Shown here: one piece after another, positions 28,093 through 42,790 of the stretch
Numbering within the stretch: position 1 is the stretch's first letter
How the letters are laid out: each line of letters opens with the position of its first letter
NCBI GenBank assembly: GCA_019637095.1
Contig: JAHBWG010000080.1
Coordinates: 1 to 42,917 of the forward strand
DNA: 42,917 bases
Reading direction: 5' to 3'
Source: Sandaracinaceae bacterium
GTDB lineage: Bacteria; Myxococcota_A; Polyangia; Polyangiales; Sandaracinaceae
Made by a program: the position numbers and the translations under genes
The notes under the pieces: model-generated
What the model saw: the letters and a program-made list of their open reading frames with translations, nothing else
What the model was told of the DNA's origin: nothing
Databases searched by the model: none

Positions 28093-30147
28093 TCAATTCA
28101 CGGCGGGCTCGGCCTCGGCGCGCGCCTGCGCCTGTAGCTCGGCGGGGAGAGGGAAGAAGCCGGTCGGGGGGCGCGTGGCGTTGCCGCGGATGTTGCCGGG
28201 CAGCACCTCGACCGGCACCGGCGGGTCGAGGTCGAACAGGAACCCGCGCTGCGTCAGCTCGAGCACGTGCATCTCCTCCGAGCCGGCCGGGCGCAGCTCG
28301 CGCCGCAGCGACGCGGCGATCTGCCCCTGCGTCGTGTACGCGCGGTGGTGCAGGAGGAAGCCGCCCATGCGCACCGCGAGGTGGTTGAAGAGGCGGTGAC
28401 AGCCGTGGCTGTAGCCGCGCAGGATCGAGCGGTAGCTCACCGAGCCGTGGCTGCGGATGCCGTTGTCGAGCAGCTCCGCGCCCGGGCCCTCGCCGCGCTG
28501 GATGTGGTGGATGACCATCGCGAGGCCGTACGCGCTGTCGTAGCCCGGCCCCGTGATCGAGTCGTTCACGCGCCAGGTGCTCCCGGAGCGCACGAGCAGC
28601 TCGTCGTCGGGCGTCGAGGGGGGCGGCAGCCACGCGGGGCCGGCGATCAGGTGCCGCCAGATCCGCGGGCCCACGTCCGACTCCTTGTACCGCATGCCGA
28701 CGCCGCCCTGTGGGTTCACCTCGGGCTGCCACCCGCCGATCGTCGTGTTCCAACGCACGAGCGCGATCTCGCGGCCCTCGTGGCGCGCGAAGATCGTCGT
28801 GACCGGGCGGTTGCGCTGCACCATGCCGCGCGGGCGGCCGTCGGGGGTGAAGGGGAACGCGTAGTGGACGTCGCCGCGATCGATCTCGACGCGCAGGTCC
28901 ATCTGCCGCGAGTGGTACTCGGGCGGCGGCGGCAGCGGCAGCGCGACGACGCGGTGGTCGGCGCGCTCTCGCGCGTGCGCGTCGAGCCACGCGAGCGCCG
29001 CCGCCGGGTCCGTCCAGCCGAGCGCGCGCGCCGCGGCGTCCGTCTGCGCGGAGACGAGATCCGGCGCGCCGTTCGGGAGCGGGGGCACGCGCCCGACCGC
29101 GCGGAACTCGTCGTCGATCTGGAGCTGGCGGCCGACGACGGTGCCCCACTGGTTGCTCGCGGAGCCGTCCTCGAGGATCCCCGTCGCGTCGACCACGCGC
29201 TCGCGCAGCGCGCGCAAGAGGGTGAGGAAGTCGAGCTCGCGGCTGTCCATCGTCAGCGAGGCGCGCGTCGTCTCGTCGAGCCGGCCGGCGAGGCTGATGA
29301 TCATGTGGCGCGACTGCCAGATGCGGATCGCGCGGCCCGTGTGCGCGTCCAGCTCCCCGTCGCGCGCGCGAGAGGAGAGCGTCCCCTCGCAGCGCAAGTG
29401 CGCTTGCACCGCGCGGATCGCCGCGACCACGGGCTCCATGCGCCGAAGGCGCCGCACCTCTTGCGCTTCGCGCGAGTTGCTCCCGTCGTCGAGCGCGTCG
29501 ATGGACGGAAGGCGCCGACGCCGCGCCACGTCCTCGAGCCGGCGCCGCAGGACCTGCACCGACATCACGCGGCGGCGCTGCCCGGTGGGGTCCGAGCCGG
29601 GGCGGATCGTGTCGTCGAGCGACGCGATCGCCGCGTCGTCGACCGCGTCGTGGCAGCGGTGCCGCTCCTCGTCCGCGAGGCGCGCGCGCACCACGTTCAG
29701 CGTGGGGAAGATGCCGTAGAGCTCGAGGTGCCGCTCCATCGGGTCGCGCTGGCGGCGGTGCTGCTCGTTGGCGAGCCGGAGGAACTCGCGGCGGTACGGC
29801 TGGCGGCCGCGCGCGCCGAGCGAGGGGTCCTCCGTGAAGATCGTGGGCGCCCAGGCCTCGCCGAGGTCGACGAGGGCGAGCCCGCGTCGCTCGGCGCGCT
29901 CGCGCGTGACGGGGCGGCGCGCTCGGCCGTCCGTCCAGAACGGGATGTCGCCCGGCGGGCCGGTCTCGTCGAGCTCCTCGTCCACCCCGACGGCGTCCGC
30001 GCGCGCCTCGTCGCTGCCGCCCTCGGTCACGCGCGCCTCGTGCGTCTGTCCGACCGGCTGCGCGGGCCCCGAGGGCCCCGCGCACGAGCCGAGCGCGATC
30101 GCGATCGCGAGGGCGTGGGATCGGGAGCTCGTCGCGTGCTGGACCAT
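28093..30147 (-). CDS. L,D-transpeptidase (YkuD) lipoprotein
   Basis: 684 residues from ATG 30147. The signal ends in ALGSC, a good lipobox. A helical N-terminal half includes a peptidoglycan-binding-like stretch (GRLDETTRASL). The YkuD catalytic motif is SHGCHRLFN with Cys near residue 583, preceded by the conserved IRSHGSVSY. These enzymes cross-link peptidoglycan or attach proteins to it. His replaces the more usual residue after the Cys, before Arg. TATGGG 5 bp upstream supports the start; the RBS-like GGGTGAG is an alternative. Confidence 0.85.
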   Translation of the reverse strand: MVQHATSSRSHALAIAIALGSCAGPSGPAQPVGQTHEARVTEGGSDEARADAVGVDEELDETGPPGDIPFWTDGRARRPVTRERAERRGLALVDLGEAWAPTIFTEDPSLGARGRQPYRREFLRLANEQHRRQRDPMERHLELYGIFPTLNVVRARLADEERHRCHDAVDDAAIASLDDTIRPGSDPTGQRRRVMSVQVLRRRLEDVARRRRLPSIDALDDGSNSREAQEVRRLRRMEPVVAAIRAVQAHLRCEGTLSSRARDGELDAHTGRAIRIWQSRHMIISLAGRLDETTRASLTMDSRELDFLTLLRALRERVVDATGILEDGSASNQWGTVVGRQLQIDDEFRAVGRVPPLPNGAPDLVSAQTDAAARALGWTDPAAALAWLDAHARERADHRVVALPLPPPPEYHSRQMDLRVEIDRGDVHYAFPFTPDGRPRGMVQRNRPVTTIFARHEGREIALVRWNTTIGGWQPEVNPQGGVGMRYKESDVGPRIWRHLIAGPAWLPPPSTPDDELLVRSGSTWRVNDSITGPGYDSAYGLAMVIHHIQRGEGPGAELLDNGIRSHGSVSYRSILRGYSHGCHRLFNHLAVRMGGFLLHHRAYTTQGQIAASLRRELRPAGSEEMHVLELTQRGFLFDLDPPVPVEVLPGNIRGNATRPPTGFFPLPAELQAQARAEAEPAVN

Positions 30148-30243
30148 TCTCACCCATAGTTCTGCGTACATCCGGGCCGCGATGCAAAGATTCAACAGAC
30201 CTCGGGCCGCGCGCGATTCCGGCGCGGTGTCGCGCGCGTCGGC

Positions 30244-34256: not shown

Positions 34257-35452
34257 GGGTCGCCCTCGTGCTCGCGCTGGCGTGCGGATGCACCGCGCCA
34301 TCGGGCGACTGCGCGCGCGCCGACCTCGCGCCGCCGCCGCGCGCGCCGGCCTACGCGCTCGTCGCGAGCGACTACTCCTCGAGCGCGATCGGCCTGCTCG
34401 ACACCGACGGCTCCGTGATCACAGCGGCGTGGCTCGACTCCGGCGCGCGGCCGCCGGGGGTCGTCGCGGCCCTGAGCGGCGACGTGGTGCTGCCGACCGC
34501 GCCGTTCGCGCCGTGCACGGTCGTCCTCGTCGACCGGTTCGGCACCGACGTGGTCAGCTGGCTCGACCCGTGCGGCGGCGAGCCGGTGCGCGGGCAGCTC
34601 GACGTCGGGCGATCGCTCGCCTCGAACCCGCACGACGTCTTGCGGGTCGGCGCGGCCGCGTGGGTCACCCGCTACGGCGTGGGCCTGGGCGCCGCGGCCG
34701 ACTCGATCGAGCGCGGCAACGACGTCGTGGTCGTCGAAGGCGGTCGCATCGCGCGCCGGATCGATCTGGGCGCGCTCGCCGACGACGGCGAGACGTTCGC
34801 CCGCCCCGATCGGATGGCGCGCATCGGGCCAGCCGGCGCGGAGCAGGTGGTGGTCGGCCTCGGGCGGCTCTCGGCGGACTTCATGCGGACCGGCCCCGGC
34901 GCCGTCGCGCTCGTCGATCCGCGCACCCTCGAAGCGCGGCTCGTGCCGATCGCGGGGCTGTCGGGCTGCGGCGAGCTCGATCCGATCGGCGAGGTGGTCG
35001 TCGTGACGTGCCAGGGCGAGGCGTTCGGCGACGCGGCGGCGCGGCGCGCGCGCGCGGGCGTCGTCGCGCTCGGCCTCGATGGCGCCGGAGGCCTCGTGGA
35101 GCGCGCCGCGTTCCGCGCGGCCGAGCATCCGTCGCTGCCCGTGCCCACCGGGCCGACGATCGCGCTCGCGGAGGACCGCTGGCTCACCGTCGCGTTCGGG
35201 GACATCCCGGCGGGCACGCCGGATCGCGCGCTCGGGATCGCGCGCGGGCAGGCCGAGGTGTGGCTCGAGGCGGCGCCGTTCACGCTGGGCGAGGGCGTCT
35301 ACGACGCCGCGCACGATCTCTTGCTCCTGCCCGACGCGGGCGCGAGCGTGATCCGGCGGCTGCGCGGCGACGGGACCGAGCGCGAGCCCATCGACGCGAC
35401 CGGCTGCCACGGGCTCCCACCGCGCGAGATCGCGCGCGTCGCTTTTCCGTGA
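34253..35452 (+). CDS. Beta-propeller-like lipoprotein in the cobalamin operon (BtuG analogue candidate)
   Basis: 399 residues from GTG 34253. VRVALVLALACGC has Cys at 11 and 13 as possible acylation sites. Repeating strands follow: YALVASDYSSSAIGLLDTDG, TVVLVDRFGTDVVSWLD and LTVAFGDIPAG. A late LLLLPDAGASVIRRL shows another blade. A propeller lipoprotein under B12 control is the architecture of Bacteroides BtuG, which binds B12 on the surface. Homology is not shown. It is overlapped by the upstream gene and followed by a Kazal-type lipoprotein. Confidence 0.75.
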   Translation: MRVALVLALACGCTAPSGDCARADLAPPPRAPAYALVASDYSSSAIGLLDTDGSVITAAWLDSGARPPGVVAALSGDVVLPTAPFAPCTVVLVDRFGTDVVSWLDPCGGEPVRGQLDVGRSLASNPHDVLRVGAAAWVTRYGVGLGAAADSIERGNDVVVVEGGRIARRIDLGALADDGETFARPDRMARIGPAGAEQVVVGLGRLSADFMRTGPGAVALVDPRTLEARLVPIAGLSGCGELDPIGEVVVVTCQGEAFGDAAARRARAGVVALGLDGAGGLVERAAFRAAEHPSLPVPTGPTIALAEDRWLTVAFGDIPAGTPDRALGIARGQAEVWLEAAPFTLGEGVYDAAHDLLLLPDAGASVIRRLRGDGTEREPIDATGCHGLPPREIARVAFP

Positions 35453-35484
35453 CGGATCCGGCGCGCCCCGGCCACGCACCCGGC

Positions 35485-36930
35485 ATGAACCGTCCGAGCG
35501 CGGTCGCGCCTTCTCTTCTCTTCGGGCTCCTGTTCCTGTCGCTGGCCGGCTGCCAGCGCGTCCACGTCGGCACGCACGACGGCGGCGCCGAGGACGCGGG
35601 CGAGCGCGTGCGCTGCGGGCCGGTGACGTGCGAGCAGGGGCAGGTCTGCTGCAACGCGAGCTGCGGCATCTGCACGGCGCCCGGCGGCACCTGCGTCGAG
35701 ATCGCGTGCACCACCGAGTGCGCGGGCAACGCGGAGTGCGCGCCGGACGAGTACTGCGCGCTCTCGCACTGCCCCGACGGGCGCCGCGACGGCGTGTGCG
35801 TGCCCCGGCCCGAGGCGTGCCCCGAGTACTACTCGCCGGTCTGCGGCTGCGACGGGCGCACGTACGACAACCCCTGCTTCGCGAGCGGGTCGGGCGCGGT
35901 CGTCGCGCACGCCGGCGCCTGCACCGGCCCGTGCGCGCCGATGGACGCGCGGGGCCAGGGGGACTGCGCGGCGATCGTCGGCATCGTGTGGGATGGCGCG
36001 CGCTGCACGTACATCGGCGGCTGCTCGTGCGTGGGCGCGGACTGCGGCGCGACCTACGCGACGCTTCACGACTGCGAGGTCGCGCGCGCCGGCTGTCACT
36101 CGTGTGCGCCGCAGGACTTCCGCGGAGAGGGGCCCTGCGAGGCCGAGCTCGGCACGTACTGGGACGGGACGGCCTGCCGCACGATCAGCGGGTGCCGGTG
36201 CCTCGGCGCCGACTGCGACAACGGCTGGCCGGACCCGATGGCCTGCCAGGTCGCGCACCAGCACTGCTTCGGGCCGCCCCCCGGGTGCACCACCTCCGCC
36301 GACTGCCCGATGGGCGAGTGGTGTCAGACCCCGCGCGGCGCGTGCGGCGGGCCCGGGACGTGCGTCCCGCCGGCGCCGCCGGGCTGGTCCTGTCCGGATC
36401 CGGGCCCGCCCGTCTGCGGCTGCGACGGCGTCACGTACGGGTGCGACGCCATGGCGATCTCGCTCGGGGTGAACGTCGCGAGCGACGGCGCCTGCAACGG
36501 CTCGTGCGCGCCGCAGGACGCCTCGGGGGAGGGCCTCTGCGACGGGTTCTTCGGGTACGCGTGGACGGGGATGAGCTGCTTCGGCGTGTCCGGCTGCAAC
36601 TGCGTGGGGCGCGACTGTGGGAGCCTCGCGATGACCGAGGAAGAGTGCCTCGCGCGCTACGCCGGCTGCGAGCGGGCGCCCGGCGGTGAGTGCGGCGGCT
36701 TCGCCGGCTTCGTCTGCCGCCCCGACGAGTGGTGCGACTACGAGTCGGGGCCCGGGCGCCCCGGCTGCGGCGCGGCCGACGACCTCGGCCGGTGCCGTCC
36801 GCGCCCGGTCGACTGCACCTTCCTCGAGGACCCGGTGTGCGGCTGCGACGGCCGCACGCACGGCAACGAGTGCATGGCGAACGCCGCGGGCGTCGACATC
36901 GGCGCGCGCGGCGCCTGCCCGATGCTTTGA
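35485..36930 (+). CDS. Kazal-type multidomain Cys-rich lipoprotein
   Basis: 481 residues. LSLAGC is the lipobox, and a DGGAEDAG linker follows. Three Kazal-like modules (PVCGCDGRTYDNPC near 117-130, PVCGCDGVTY near 309, PVCGCDGRTHGNEC near 450) alternate with three ~57-residue modules starting CAPxD and containing GCxCxGxDC (near 150, 206, 341). Order: K-A-A-K-A-K. Kazal domains inhibit serine proteases. ATG 35485 is 32 bp after the propeller gene, so it is likely in the same operon. Confidence 0.75.
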   Translation: MNRPSAVAPSLLFGLLFLSLAGCQRVHVGTHDGGAEDAGERVRCGPVTCEQGQVCCNASCGICTAPGGTCVEIACTTECAGNAECAPDEYCALSHCPDGRRDGVCVPRPEACPEYYSPVCGCDGRTYDNPCFASGSGAVVAHAGACTGPCAPMDARGQGDCAAIVGIVWDGARCTYIGGCSCVGADCGATYATLHDCEVARAGCHSCAPQDFRGEGPCEAELGTYWDGTACRTISGCRCLGADCDNGWPDPMACQVAHQHCFGPPPGCTTSADCPMGEWCQTPRGACGGPGTCVPPAPPGWSCPDPGPPVCGCDGVTYGCDAMAISLGVNVASDGACNGSCAPQDASGEGLCDGFFGYAWTGMSCFGVSGCNCVGRDCGSLAMTEEECLARYAGCERAPGGECGGFAGFVCRPDEWCDYESGPGRPGCGAADDLGRCRPRPVDCTFLEDPVCGCDGRTHGNECMANAAGVDIGARGACPML

Positions 36931-36974: not shown

Positions 36975-37838
36975 GTGCGCGACGACGTCCCGAGCCTGAC
37001 CGCGCGCGCGGTGGCCCTGGCCCGCGGGGTGGCCTCGCTCCCCGGGGGGCGGCGCGCACCGGCGCCCGATCCGCTCGCCGCGCGGCTGCTCGATCCGCTG
37101 CTCGGCCGCGCGCTCGACGGGCTCGCCCCGATCGCCGCGTTCACGCCCGCCGTCTCGTGGGCGCTGCGCCTCGCCTCGCTCGGGCTCGTCGATCACCTCG
37201 CGCTGCGCACCGCCGCCATCGACGCGGCCCTGCGCGCCGCGTGCGCGCGCGACGTCCCACAGGTCGTGTTGCTCGGCGCCGGGCTCGACGCGCGGGCGTT
37301 CCGGGTGCCGGAGCTCGCGGGGCGGCGCGTGCTCGAGGTCGATCACCCCGCGACGCAGCGCTTCAAGCGGCGGCGCGTCGAGGGCCTCACGCCGTTCGCC
37401 TCGGAGCTCCGCTTCGTCTCGGTCGACTTCACCCGCGAGGACCTCGGCGTGCGGCTCGCCGAGGAGGGGCACGACACGACGCGCGCGACGTTCTGGATCT
37501 GGGAGGGCGTCGTGCCGTACCTGCCCGAGGAGGTGACGCGCGCGACGCTCGCGACGCTCGCGGCGCGCTCCGCGGCGGGGAGCGGGCTCGCGGTGACCTA
37601 CGGGACGCGTGACGACGCGCTCTGGCTCGCGCGGCTCGGCGCGCCGGTGCACCTCGCCTTCCGCGCGCTCGGCGAGCCGCTCCACGGGCTCACGACCGTC
37701 GAGCGCATGCAGGGGCTGCTCGCGGCGACCGGCTGGCATGTCGAGCACGACAGCGGCCCCGCGGACTGGCGCCGTCGGTTCGGCTACGGGCGCCTGCTGA
37801 CGATCGAGGAGCGCCTCGCGGTCGCGACGAAGGCGTGA
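36975..37838 (+). CDS. Leucine-carboxyl-methyltransferase-like SAM-dependent methyltransferase (TIGR00027-type)
   Basis: 287 residues. VVLLGAGLDARAFRV (about 97-111) is the glycine-rich SAM motif with the conserved Asp-Ala-Arg, VLEVDHPATQ (117-126) holds the acidic residue, and IWEGVVPYLPEEV follows. This is the LCM/PPM family, which methylates carboxyl groups or small acids. Substrate unknown. GTG 36975 follows the TAGCGT box. Confidence 0.85.
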   Translation: MRDDVPSLTARAVALARGVASLPGGRRAPAPDPLAARLLDPLLGRALDGLAPIAAFTPAVSWALRLASLGLVDHLALRTAAIDAALRAACARDVPQVVLLGAGLDARAFRVPELAGRRVLEVDHPATQRFKRRRVEGLTPFASELRFVSVDFTREDLGVRLAEEGHDTTRATFWIWEGVVPYLPEEVTRATLATLAARSAAGSGLAVTYGTRDDALWLARLGAPVHLAFRALGEPLHGLTTVERMQGLLAATGWHVEHDSGPADWRRRFGYGRLLTIEERLAVATKA

Positions 37839-39300: not shown

Positions 39301-40812
39301 TCACTCGGTCACGACGACGTGGCTGCCGCGAAGCTCGGTCTGCTCCGTCGCGACGCCGTGCCATCCGTCGGGCAGGCGCGGCCACGTCCGCGCGAACACG
39401 TAGTGCGCGTCGTGCGGCGTGAGGTTCACGCAGCCGTGCGAGCGCGGCAGCCCGAAGCCCGTGTGCCAGAACGCGGTGTGGAGCGCGTAGGCGCCCTCGA
39501 AGTACTGCGTCCACGGCACGTCCTCGATCGAGTAGCGATCGTCGGTCATGTCGGAGCCGAGGTTGCTCATCGTGTCGGTCACGTGCTTGCGCCGGATCTC
39601 GAAGATCCCCGTCGGTGTCGCGTGGCCCTCGAGGCCGGTGGAGACGAGCGTCGCGTAGCGCGGCGTGTCGCCCTCGTAGAGCACCAGCGTCTGCTCGCTC
39701 AGATCGACGTGCACCCAGGGCTCGTCGGGCGCGACGCCGTCGGGGCGCGCGATGCGCTCGGCGACGGACGCGAACCACGCGCGCAGGTAGCGCGGTCCCG
39801 CGCTCGTCCCGAGCACGTGCACGAGCTGGCCGCCGACGTTGCGCCGGCCCTCCCAGCCCTCCAGCCAGGTCTGCCGCTCGATCGCGGGCGCGTCGTCGTC
39901 GTTGACGAGGGCGCCGTCGTCGCCGAGCCGCATCGGGCGCGCGGCGCGCACCGTCCACGCGATCGGCAGCGTGCGCTCGGGCCCGAGCTCGACGCCGCGG
40001 AACGTGTGGCCGCTGCGCGGCTCGAGCTGCGCCTGCTTGATGAAGCGGCCCTGCGTGGTGCGCACGAACCGCCGGAACGCGCGCAGCTCGAAGCCGCTCG
40101 ACGCGACGTAGAAGCCGCGGTCGAGGTAGCGGTTCACGACCGCGGTGCCGCGCGGGCCGTCGTCGCTCTCGCCGGCGAGGTAGCGGCGGGCGCGCCGCTC
40201 GTCGATCGCGAGCAGCTCGCGGAACCGGTCCGCCTTCGCGCCGGCGGCGCGCTGCTCGTCGCGCGACGGCAGCCGGTGGTACTCGGGCACCGTCGACTCG
40301 CGCACGTACCAGTAGTCGTAGGGCAGCGCCGCGTCGCGCGCGATCGGCGGCAAGACGAGCGCGCCGCGCGCGCGCGCCGCCTCGACCTGCCCGTCCTTCC
40401 AGCCCTCGAGCGTCGGCTCCTCGAGCTCGATCGGCTGCTCGCGCACCTCGAGCGCGTCGTCGTCGCAGACGTAGCCGAGCGGGTGCGCGCGGCGCCACGC
40501 GGCGCAGCCCGGGCCGCGCGTCGCCTCGCTCGCGAGGCGCACGCGGGCGCCGGTGCGCAGCCACCCGACGACCGGCGCGCCCTCGTCGGGCCGCGTGCGG
40601 ATCGTCGTCACGATGCCCGTGAACGCCGCGTGCATCGGGTACTCCGCGTCGAGGCGGGCCGCCGCGCGCTCCTCTTCGGTCGCCTCCGGCGGGAGCGCCG
40701 CCTCGGCGCGATCGGCCGCGGACACCGCCGCGGCCTCGATGTCGGCCGTCCCCTCGCGCTCTGCTCCGCAGGAGGCCAGCACGAGCGACAGGGCCGCGGC
40801 GAACGAGCGCAT
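39301..40812 (-). CDS. L,D-transpeptidase (YkuD) lipoprotein with SH3-like N-terminal region
   Basis: 503 residues. LVLASC is the lipobox. A small SH3-like region (TAFTGIVTTIRTRPDEGAPV, here in part: GIVTTIRTRP) lies near 50-100. The YkuD domain at the C-terminus has HVDLSEQTLVLYEGD, TPTGIFEI and the active-site SHGCVNL with Cys near 461. It is a peptidoglycan cross-linking or anchoring enzyme. TAGGCC is 8 bp before ATG 40812. The second such enzyme in the window. Confidence 0.85.
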   Translation of the reverse strand: MRSFAAALSLVLASCGAEREGTADIEAAAVSAADRAEAALPPEATEEERAAARLDAEYPMHAAFTGIVTTIRTRPDEGAPVVGWLRTGARVRLASEATRGPGCAAWRRAHPLGYVCDDDALEVREQPIELEEPTLEGWKDGQVEAARARGALVLPPIARDAALPYDYWYVRESTVPEYHRLPSRDEQRAAGAKADRFRELLAIDERRARRYLAGESDDGPRGTAVVNRYLDRGFYVASSGFELRAFRRFVRTTQGRFIKQAQLEPRSGHTFRGVELGPERTLPIAWTVRAARPMRLGDDGALVNDDDAPAIERQTWLEGWEGRRNVGGQLVHVLGTSAGPRYLRAWFASVAERIARPDGVAPDEPWVHVDLSEQTLVLYEGDTPRYATLVSTGLEGHATPTGIFEIRRKHVTDTMSNLGSDMTDDRYSIEDVPWTQYFEGAYALHTAFWHTGFGLPRSHGCVNLTPHDAHYVFARTWPRLPDGWHGVATEQTELRGSHVVVTE

Positions 40813-40897
40813 CGCGCCGTGGCCTACCAGAGCGCGCGCGGCCCGCAAGCGCGCCCGCGCGGGTGTAAGCGCGCGCCGCGGTGCGCGTTGGGCGCGC

Positions 40898-41164
40898 ATG
40901 AACCTCCGCCGCTGTCCCTGCTGCCCCGCCTTCCTGCCCTCCGGCGCGCCCTCCTGCGCGCTTTGCGCCCGCGCGATCCCGCGCTGGCTGCGCCGCGCCG
41001 CCGTCCTCGTCGGCGGCGCGGGCGCCGCGGTGACGCTGTCCGCGTGCTACGGCGCGCCCTGCGCCGGCGGCGGGGGAGCCTGCTACGAGACCTTCCCGGA
41101 GCCGGCCACCGAGTGCGCCGACCGCTCGGCGGCGGGCGGCGACGGCGCCTGCGACGAGCCGTGA
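40898..41164 (+). CDS. Small zinc-ribbon/membrane Cys-rich protein
   Basis: 88 residues. CPCC (6-9) and CALC (20-23) are probable zinc knuckles, followed by one membrane helix (about 31-48) and a Cys-rich tail (CYGAPCAGGGGACYETF). No family recognised. ATG 40898 has no strong RBS; TAAGCG is 26 bp upstream. Confidence 0.5.
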   Translation: MNLRRCPCCPAFLPSGAPSCALCARAIPRWLRRAAVLVGGAGAAVTLSACYGAPCAGGGGACYETFPEPATECADRSAAGGDGACDEP

Positions 41165-41174
41165 TCGCTCCGGC

Positions 41175-42272
41175 TCATTCCACCAGGAACATGTGGCGCG
41201 GCCCGCGCAGGCCGGTCGGCGTCCCGCCGATCGTGCGGCTCGGCGCGCCGGTCCCGCCGACGAGCGCGTCGAACACGTAGAGGTCCGCGTTCTGTCGGTC
41301 GCTCACGTAGACGGTCCCGTCCGCGCCGACGAGGATCCCCGCGAGGTTCGCGCGCTCGGGGCTGACCGCGATCGTCTGCGGCGTCACCGATCCGGTCGCG
41401 CTCGCGACGCTCGGGACCACGTAGATCGTGCCCGTGTCGTCGACGGCGAGCAGGTTGCCGGCGCCGTCGATCGCGATGTCGGCGAGGCCGTTCCACACGT
41501 CGCTCTCGAAGATGCGCGCGGGCGTCGTCTCGCCGTCCGCGGTGCCGGGCGCGTCGAACACCAGGACACGGCTGTGGTTGGTGTTCGCGCCCGAGGTGTC
41601 GACGACGTAGAGCGCGCCCGTCGCGTCGAACGCGAACGCGTCGACGCTCATGCGGAGCGAGCCGCTCGTCGCGTGCGGCGCGCGATCCGGCGGGCCGAAG
41701 GCGCGCGACGGCGCGAGCGCTCCGTCGAAGGCCGCGCCCGAGACGTCGTCGTACACGAGCACGCCGCTCGCGGCCATCGGCACGCCGACGTAAAGCCGGT
41801 CGGCGCTCGCGTCGTAGCCGAACGCGACCACGGTCGAGAGCGATCCATCGGTCACCTCGCGATCGCGCGGCGTCTCTCCGTCCGCGCTCGCGAGCGAGTC
41901 CCAGCCGATGATGCCGCCGTTCTGTCGGCCGACGAGCAGGCGGCCGCTCGTGGTGATCGCGATGGCGCGCGGCTGGAAGAGCCCGGTCGCGGCGCCGAGG
42001 GGCTGCGAGGTGCGCGGCGTCACCGGGCCGTCGGCGGTGTTCGCGGCGGCGAAGCTCGTCAGGTCGTCGTTCGTGTTCACGACGTAGAGCCACGGGCGGG
42101 CGCCGCTCGTGGTCGGGCCGGCGTCGGTCGCGGCGTCCGCGCCCGGCTCGCTCCCCGCGTCCGCGGGCGACGAGGCGTCGGTGCCCTCGGCGGGATCGCC
42201 GTCGCACCCGAGGGCGACGAGCAAGAGCGACGAGAGGGCGAGGCGGGCGGCGCCGGCGAGCGGTTCGAGCAT
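41175..42272 (-). CDS. Propeller (NHL-like) lipoprotein
   Basis: 365 residues. The signal ends in LVALGC. A DASSPADAG linker (about 25-50) is followed by strands of NHL-type propeller repeats (IAITTSGRLLVGRQNGG, FGYDASADRLYVG, FAFDATGALYVVDTSG, IAIDGAGNLLAVDDTG, ILVGADGTVYVSDRQNA). Function unknown. AAAGGAG before ATG 42272 supports the start; TATGGA lies about 49 bp upstream. Third propeller lipoprotein in the window. Confidence 0.75.
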   Translation of the reverse strand: MLEPLAGAARLALSSLLLVALGCDGDPAEGTDASSPADAGSEPGADAATDAGPTTSGARPWLYVVNTNDDLTSFAAANTADGPVTPRTSQPLGAATGLFQPRAIAITTSGRLLVGRQNGGIIGWDSLASADGETPRDREVTDGSLSTVVAFGYDASADRLYVGVPMAASGVLVYDDVSGAAFDGALAPSRAFGPPDRAPHATSGSLRMSVDAFAFDATGALYVVDTSGANTNHSRVLVFDAPGTADGETTPARIFESDVWNGLADIAIDGAGNLLAVDDTGTIYVVPSVASATGSVTPQTIAVSPERANLAGILVGADGTVYVSDRQNADLYVFDALVGGTGAPSRTIGGTPTGLRGPRHMFLVE

Positions 42273-42409: not shown

Positions 42410-42790
42410 TCAGGGCTGTGTCTGGCAGCTCGCCGCCGTGCAGGAGCTCTCGCACGTCGCCGCGCCGCCGCACTGGAGCTGGCAGCTCTGCGTGCAGCCG
42501 GTGAGCCGGCAGACGGACGTGCCCGAGCACTGGACCTGGCAGTCGTTGCCGGGGCAGTCGATCTCGCAGCGCTCCGCGTCGTCGCACTGCATCTGGCAGC
42601 CACCTTCGGGGCAGGCGTGATCGCAGCGCGACTCGCCGGCGCACACGAAGTCGCACCCGCGCCCCTCGCACTCGAACGCGCAGCTCGCGCCTGCCGGACA
42701 GCGGCAGTCTGCGCCGCGACACGTCTCGCGGCCGCAGCCGGCGAGGCAGAGGCCCACGAGCACGAGCATGGCGAGGAAGAGTCGTTGCAT
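42410..42790 (-). CDS. Lipoprotein with five 19-residue four-Cys repeats
   Basis: 126 residues. LAGC at 16-19 is the lipobox. From Cys31 there are five units with pattern C-x5-C-x3-C-x4-C-x3 (31-49, 50-68, 69-87, 88-106 with inner spacing swapped, 107-126). Twenty-three cysteines are in the mature protein. The regularity suggests a disulfide-stapled solenoid or a metal-binding protein. I know no named family that fits. TACGCT 7 bp upstream supports ATG 42790. Confidence 0.7.
   Translation of the reverse strand: MQRLFLAMLVLVGLCLAGCGRETCRGADCRCPAGASCAFECEGRGCDFVCAGESRCDHACPEGGCQMQCDDAERCEIDCPGNDCQVQCSGTSVCRLTGCTQSCQLQCGGAATCESSCTAASCQTQP

Follow-up and report, generated by a model that had tools for sequence, protein, structure and literature searches.

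How are the cysteines of a small, Cys-rich exported protein arranged, and are they bonded to each other, to a metal or to nothing at all? This question is raised by a gene near the end of the window, i.e. the whole stretch of 42,917 nucleotides that was analyzed here. The reading we favor, to which we give a probability of about three in four, is that its product is an exported beta-solenoid in which every coil carries two disulfides; the window protein would have 11. The gene starts 127 bases from the contig end, where the window also stops. Its features, and the nearest downstream gene, are as follows.

42410..42790, minus strand: whole gene, 126-aa Cys-rich lipoprotein precursor plus stop codon (ORF list, translation, coding support)
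42734..42790, minus strand: signal peptide, aa 1-18, plus Cys19 of the lipobox LAGC, the proposed lipidation site (sequence itself and lipobox regular expression)
42701..42733, minus strand: N-terminal cap, aa 20-30, with C24 and C29 as a proposed pair, by elimination (conservation and AlphaFold2 strands)
42644..42700, minus strand: repeat 1, aa 31-49, proposed disulfides C31-C37 and C41-C46 (periodicity, AlphaFold2, pairing statistics)
42587..42643, minus strand: repeat 2, aa 50-68, proposed disulfides C50-C56 and C60-C65 (periodicity, AlphaFold2, pairing statistics)
42530..42586, minus strand: repeat 3, aa 69-87, proposed disulfides C69-C75 and C79-C84 (periodicity, AlphaFold2, pairing statistics)
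42473..42529, minus strand: repeat 4, aa 88-106, with a one-residue bulge (CRLTGC), proposed disulfides C88-C94 and C99-C103 (periodicity, AlphaFold2; the parser permits bulged strands)
42413..42472, minus strand: repeat 5, aa 107-126, proposed disulfides C107-C113 and C117-C122 (periodicity, AlphaFold2, pairing statistics)
41175..42272, minus strand: neighboring lipoprotein-like gene with a beta-propeller-type match (NHL, E 2.3e-4), 137 bp downstream (Pfam)

The precursor begins with MQRLFLAMLVLVGLCLAGC, by eye a signal peptide with a lipobox ending in Cys. It contains 24 Cys, one of which (C15) lies inside the signal peptide; the translation thus bears out the mature form of about 108 residues with 23 Cys described in an earlier note on this DNA, when counted from the lipobox C19. 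The reading frame is taken as real because the G+C content of its codon positions is 0.63/0.63/0.92 and because a relative from another genus, found by tblastn in one genome of the same family (G002) with 69% identity over residues 5-126, keeps 23 of the 24 Cys. A lipobox is recognized by regular expression in 75 of 97 family ORFs, including the window's own, so the protein is probably lipid-anchored. The outer-surface location suggested earlier is plausible from the lipobox.

The repeat units begin at C31, C50, C69, C88, and C107, an exact 19-residue spacing, and 14 of the 23 Cys have another Cys at +19. When the mature sequence was shuffled 20,000 times, with the best lag from 6 to 44 taken for each shuffled sequence, this score was never reached, so the five 19-residue Cys repeats first noticed from the sequence alone hold up. 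At the DNA level, the corresponding 57-nt period is seen as four copies of a 47-nt stretch at spacings of 57, 57, and 57. The repeats have diverged, with a mean identity between units of 32%, or 16% at non-Cys positions. The register C-x5-C-x3-C-x4-C-x3, which had been called strict, stands for units 1-3 and 5; the word is slightly too strong because unit 4 is internally shifted and reads C-x5-C-x4-C-x3-C-x3.

Relatives of the window protein were sought by pattern and by profile. A degenerate-pattern scan of 84,980 species genomes returned 41 stretches and 11 confirmed relatives, at least 4 of them loci already found by tblastn; 10 of the 11 come from Polyangia, Myxococcales or their subgroups, and 1 from an uncultured proteobacterium. 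A profile built from 12 proteins matches 76 of 183 genomes of the window's order (E<=1e-6) and, at E<=1e-8, 78 in a sample of 377 genomes from the phylum with completeness >=80. Many of the matched genomes have several matches each. In many members a low-complexity linker precedes the Cys-rich part. The window's own genome (G000) has three profile matches at E<=1e-6, and therefore probably contains two further members, diverged, or fragments. One protein, at locus L055, has two Cys solenoids separated by a GDGDG-type linker and was parsed as 24 strands.

These relatives were grouped into two sets, both drawn from the higher places of the profile match lists. For the discovery set, 30 loci, 60 more listed places, and the earlier loci gave 118 ORF hits, 97 without duplicates, and 78 representatives below 60% identity. 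The out-of-sample set consists of 63 loci (3 plus 60 listed places) with 63 ORF hits, reduced to 50 representatives; these were found with the same profile, have <60% identity to the discovery set, and all lie outside the window's order, either within its class or elsewhere in the phylum. Among all 128 representatives, coil length is 19 in 705 of 1042 coils, 18 in 186, and 20 in 80, counting coils of the eight commonest lengths; periodicity is thus a property of the homologues as well.

Searches of protein libraries gave the window protein no Pfam match at E<=10 and a weak best match in NCBIfam (YdhT, E 0.05, aa 46-112), which could be a hint of a related coil pattern or reflect composition only. 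Its best sequence match in the PDB, a ferredoxin (E 0.43), is taken as chance, and the plasmid and phage collections contain no match at E<=1e-3. Among the 78 discovery representatives at E<=0.1, only 1 matches Pfam and at most 4 match NCBIfam (best E 0.05). The single Pfam match is to DUF2807 (head GIN domain, putative adhesin), at a sub-threshold E of 0.048, and the other 77 have none; a longer protein, at L115, scores 13.6 bits against DUF2807, whose curated cut-off is 24.2. Pfam was also run on 9, then 6 longer relatives. We regard the matches to DUF2807, YdhT, LptM, and RtxA_C, which fall below curated cut-offs where these are shown, as chance or leads, and likewise those to MARTX, 'invert_tail', and YnfE (E 0.06-0.09); library matches without a displayed cut-off all have E > 0.04. 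A match to TrAA12 in the long L055 protein has an E of 5.4e-6 but 25.4 bits against a cut-off of 30.9 and is regarded in the same way. A full-text literature search, whose coverage largely leaves out subscription journals, shows no description of such a family among the matches listed. The domain family is widespread in Myxococcota and has no described counterpart in the libraries searched, and it was fair of the earlier note to say that it did not recognize the family.

What fold do the repeats adopt? In 523 C-xxx-C strands of the family, the middle residue is V, I, L, M, F, Y or W in 69% of cases and its two neighbors in 7% and 13%, a pattern that suggests the in/out alternation of a buried strand. 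AlphaFold2, run with a 12-row alignment, returns a beta-solenoid (pLDDT 88.6, pTM 0.77) with twelve strands, two per coil, in agreement with the solenoid proposed from the repeats alone. Nine of its strands (mature residues 18-23, 29-33, 37-41, 48-52, 56-60, 67-71, 75-79, 86-90, and 94-97) overlap the nine C-xxx-C (one C-xxxx-C) segments of the repeats. Two more, at mature residues 4-6 and 11-13, lie in the N-terminal cap, where C24 and C29 are conserved in >=90% of 12 aligned sequences; their pairing with each other in the window protein is proposed by elimination. A divergent member, L028, modeled from its single sequence, gives a poor pLDDT of 50.9 and a similar strand spacing.

AlphaFold2 is reported to over-predict beta-solenoids for perfect repeats, the case of imperfect repeats being left open there (PMC11795689), and for this reason our case is not rested on the model. 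The window repeats are far from perfect (16% identity outside Cys), and both the in/out pattern and the pairing described below are independent of AlphaFold2.

The structure that we propose on these grounds is that of an exported lipoprotein whose mature part would form a flat, two-sheet parallel beta-solenoid, the fold being predicted. Each 19-residue coil would consist of two C-x-h-x-C strands, with both Cys and h pointing inward and x mostly polar and outward. The last Cys of one strand would then face the first Cys of the next across the turn and form a disulfide with it, and because this would happen at each turn both edges of the coil would be stapled, by C-x5-C at one turn and C-x4-C at the other, with a hydrophobic pair in the center. 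The 22 Cys other than the lipobox Cys19 would thereby give 11 disulfides.

The pairing was tested on how Cys are kept or lost in relatives. Proteins were parsed by dynamic programming into strands of five or six residues and turns; the two Cys at strand ends are scored independently, so the parser has no built-in preference for pairs. An earlier parser without bulged strands had given 37 '-C' turns, many of them bulges like that of repeat 4. The six-residue-strand parser was adopted before the out-of-sample test, and the reported figures, which omit the two terminal strands of each protein, come from it.

Across turns, the discovery set (n=78) has both Cys in 533 cases, only the first in 5, only the second in 6, and neither in 43 (odds ratio 764). 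Within strands, the corresponding counts are 566, 46, 48, and 5 (odds ratio 1.3). When the same losses (104 of 1330 ends) were simulated as independent, double losses averaged 3.4 with a maximum of 7 in 100 simulations, compared with the 43 observed. The unchanged parser gave the same picture out of sample (n=50), with counts across the turn of 291, 2, 5, and 31 (odds ratio 902). For all 128 representatives, both Cys are present at 824 turns, one at 18, and none at 74 (odds ratio 792), and the odds ratio within strands is 0.6. Split by turn length, the counts of both, one, and none are 379/1/50 for x5, 346/6/5 for x4, 81/9/15 for x3, and 18/2/4 for other lengths. In the discovery set, 64 of 104 lost Cys have S, V, A or G in their place. 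Moreover, among the 99 representatives with a recognized lipobox (the other 29 of the 128 were left out of this count), 92 have an even number of Cys beyond the lipobox Cys (P = 5e-20). The exceptions thus amount to a single Cys at 18 of 916 turns and an odd number in 7 of 99 proteins. Taken at the level of sequence, these patterns are strong evidence that disulfides join the Cys flanking each turn, and we infer that the pairs are oxidized in the cell.

Could the pairs be bound to a metal instead? The earlier note had left the choice between a disulfide- and a metal-stacked solenoid. In the metal version, facing Cys pairs of neighboring coils would form four-Cys sites for Zn, Cu or Fe-S along each edge, as a metallothionein-like surface trap, and it is in keeping with such sites that Cys make up 21% of the mature protein, that the Cys pairs are stacked, and that losses along an edge are correlated. 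Specifically, the coil-to-coil correlation on the same edge has an odds ratio of 2.7-3.1 in the discovery set and 20-27 in the out-of-sample set, or 6.4-7.4 when both are combined, all far below the ratio across the turn, and double losses in neighboring coils of the same edge number 23 vs 7.5 in shuffles. Disulfides alone do not demand such a correlation, which thus counts against our main explanation. Four-Cys sites, however, predict that retained pairs come in even runs, whereas runs along an edge are even in 143 cases and odd in 151 (128 representatives), and 36 of 76 double losses stand alone on their own edge. In addition, eleven pairs cannot all sit in four-Cys sites, and neither the window protein nor the 78 members match a metal-protein family in Pfam or NCBIfam. 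The disulfide half of the earlier proposal is thus well supported by pairing, parity, and AlphaFold2, while its metal half is disfavored by the two-by-two pairing and the lack of a preference for even runs, and we consider it unlikely.

An improbable alternative is a beta-solenoid in which reduced Cys are merely stacked, the pairs co-varying through packing while staying unbonded. There is a precedent in the Brevundimonas Knotted Solenoid, a bacterial beta-solenoid with recurrent Cys like ours, in whose crystals close Cys pairs are unbonded; unlike the window family, it is triangular and has a conserved Phe alongside its Cys, with no disulfides observed (PMC13123833). Profile searches of the window's own genome returned no DsbB and no VKOR match, which also suits reduced Cys, but the same genome has 13 Thioredoxin_4 matches (in fewer ORFs than matches) and the protein is exported. 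Mere packing neither forbids lone Cys nor demands even totals, so the scarcity of lone Cys (18/916 turns) and the even numbers (92/99) are evidence for disulfides.

A string of small Cys-rich modules without a solenoid, either EGF/defensin-like or of the type of TraA, which is myxobacterial and exported like our protein and whose tandem Cys repeats (TIGR04201, three invariant and two marginally conserved Cys each) are proposed to form a rigid stalk in Myxococcus xanthus (PMC3325183), is barely credible given the AlphaFold2 model, the absence of any such module when 78 members were searched against Pfam and NCBIfam (E<=0.1), and coils that lack Cys at one edge and yet keep register and alternation, as a solenoid would. 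TIGR04201 is not among the four NCBIfam families matched by the 78 members at E<=0.1, in a library that may lack the model.

Returning to the proposed disulfide-bonded solenoid, the losses also tell how its two edges may differ. Most double losses (50 of 74) fall at x5 turns, and double losses at two successive turns are seen 4 times vs 9.1 expected. Because losses cluster by edge, it appears that disulfides can give way to small or aliphatic residues at one edge, with the other edge still stapled. Members with Cys pairs lost at one edge include those at L041, L066, and L162. Some members depart from the usual coil in other ways. At L024:4803-5348 and L040-L042, stretches of V-x-V or I-x-I strands lie ahead of the Cys coils, which we read as if hydrophobic coils ran on into stapled ones. 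In L059, L074, L077, L094, L109, and similar proteins, x3 replaces many of the x4 turns, and in L074 and L077 both Cys are missing at the short turn (CGVIV-GPG-SVVNC type).

The model was also compared with known structures. A Foldseek search of the PDB found no match at E<=0.001. A second look at 37 chains with VIA placed the C-terminal domain of human CAP1 (1k8f_A) in the first row, with Z 8.9, rmsd 3.3, and 102 residues aligned, near the usual background. The two share 5% identity, the Foldseek E is 4.4 with a probability of 0.12, and no sequence relation was found; the CAP1 Pfam family is matched neither by the window protein (E<=10) nor by the 78 members (E<=0.1). The structural match may reflect only a common arrangement.

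The hyperactive antifreeze beta-solenoids of insects (Tenebrio, midge) have short flat coils of 10 or 12 residues with one disulfide each. The window family resembles them in its short coils, predicted flat beta-solenoid, and proposed disulfides in successive coils, and differs from them in its 19-residue coils of two strands, the proposed disulfide at each edge, its bacterial origin, and its lipobox. Ice binding is not indicated, since no rank of T-x-T strands is seen: among 160 parsed ORFs, a face has at most two consecutive ones.

What might such a protein do? We tentatively suggest a rigid, protease- and denaturant-resistant, lipid-tethered surface element, serving as a spacer or as a scaffold that binds through a polar flat face. 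One face of the window protein presents Q-x-Q strands in three successive coils (CQMQC, CQVQC, and CQLQC), which are kept in the 69% relative, and the opposite face has, by eye, Asp or Glu at 5 of 10 outward positions. This may be a binding face.

Whatever the role, the disulfide pattern is fully specified and testable, and was derived from sequence alone. The natural double losses offer, coil by coil, a ready series for measuring how much a disulfide contributes to a beta-solenoid, and two staples per coil make the scaffold attractive for protein engineering. The family is also a case with AlphaFold2-independent evidence, usable to check AlphaFold2 solenoid predictions.

Gene neighborhoods were compared for 14 stretches, i.e. 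the last 15 kb of the window and 13 loci, using crude gene calls. A functional link with the propeller-like neighbor was considered and is not supported, since in the loci compared its tblastn matches lie only in four copies of the same locus. Leaving aside family members and genus g6, the shared neighbors identified belong to large superfamilies that carry little functional information. They include seven Ser/Thr kinases (L013, three in L015, two in L020, and L028), sigma-54 activators (L014, L017, and L020), and a response regulator (L014), as well as short-chain dehydrogenases that adjoin the Cys gene in L015 and L027 in different orientations. Some pairs of neighbors were identified on one side only, namely MatE (L027), alpha-amylase (L013), and a histidine kinase (L014). 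The protein encoded by a long ORF at 28096-30195 (minus strand) of the window matches L023:8225-10264 (34% over 617 aa, E 3e-93), and the latter has no Pfam match at E<=1e-5. Scans for promoters and terminators found none, the sigma-70 consensus being unsuited to 75% G+C.

VKOR proteins make disulfides, and in genus g6 (G005 and G008) the family gene is directly followed by a VKOR gene (E 1.7e-14); next come the genes for a protein whose OmpA match is below threshold and for a Redoxin protein. The C-terminus of the g6 VKOR protein has a Thioredoxin_4 match just under the cut-off (22.6 vs 23.2 bits), and the proteins compared at the locus are 86-100% identical between the two genomes. Clusters of this type were noted at L018:8830-11344, L008:1960-3231, and L016. 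From its gene content, the run of VKOR, OmpA-like, and Redoxin genes downstream of a family member is likely a thiol-oxidation cluster. VKOR is present in 141 of the order's 183 genomes; among the matches listed, and judged by eye, it lies beside a family member in g6 only and about 4 kb away in G104. That the lipid-anchored stack of about 11 disulfides would itself be a redox-active relay or buffer on the envelope, loaded by dedicated VKOR-thioredoxin or redoxin partners such as those of g6 and with one edge switched in evolution between S-S and small or aliphatic pairs, seems to us very unlikely.

Other genes of the window were noted in passing. Another Cys-rich sequence, with VCGCDGRTY motifs that we take to resemble Kazal inhibitors, occupies the C-terminal part of the protein encoded at 34282-36930 (plus strand). 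The product of 39301-40899 (minus strand) has an L,D-transpeptidase (YkuD) domain (E 4.1e-19), and that of 36975-37838 (plus strand) belongs to the Leucine carboxyl methyltransferase family (E 2.4e-40).
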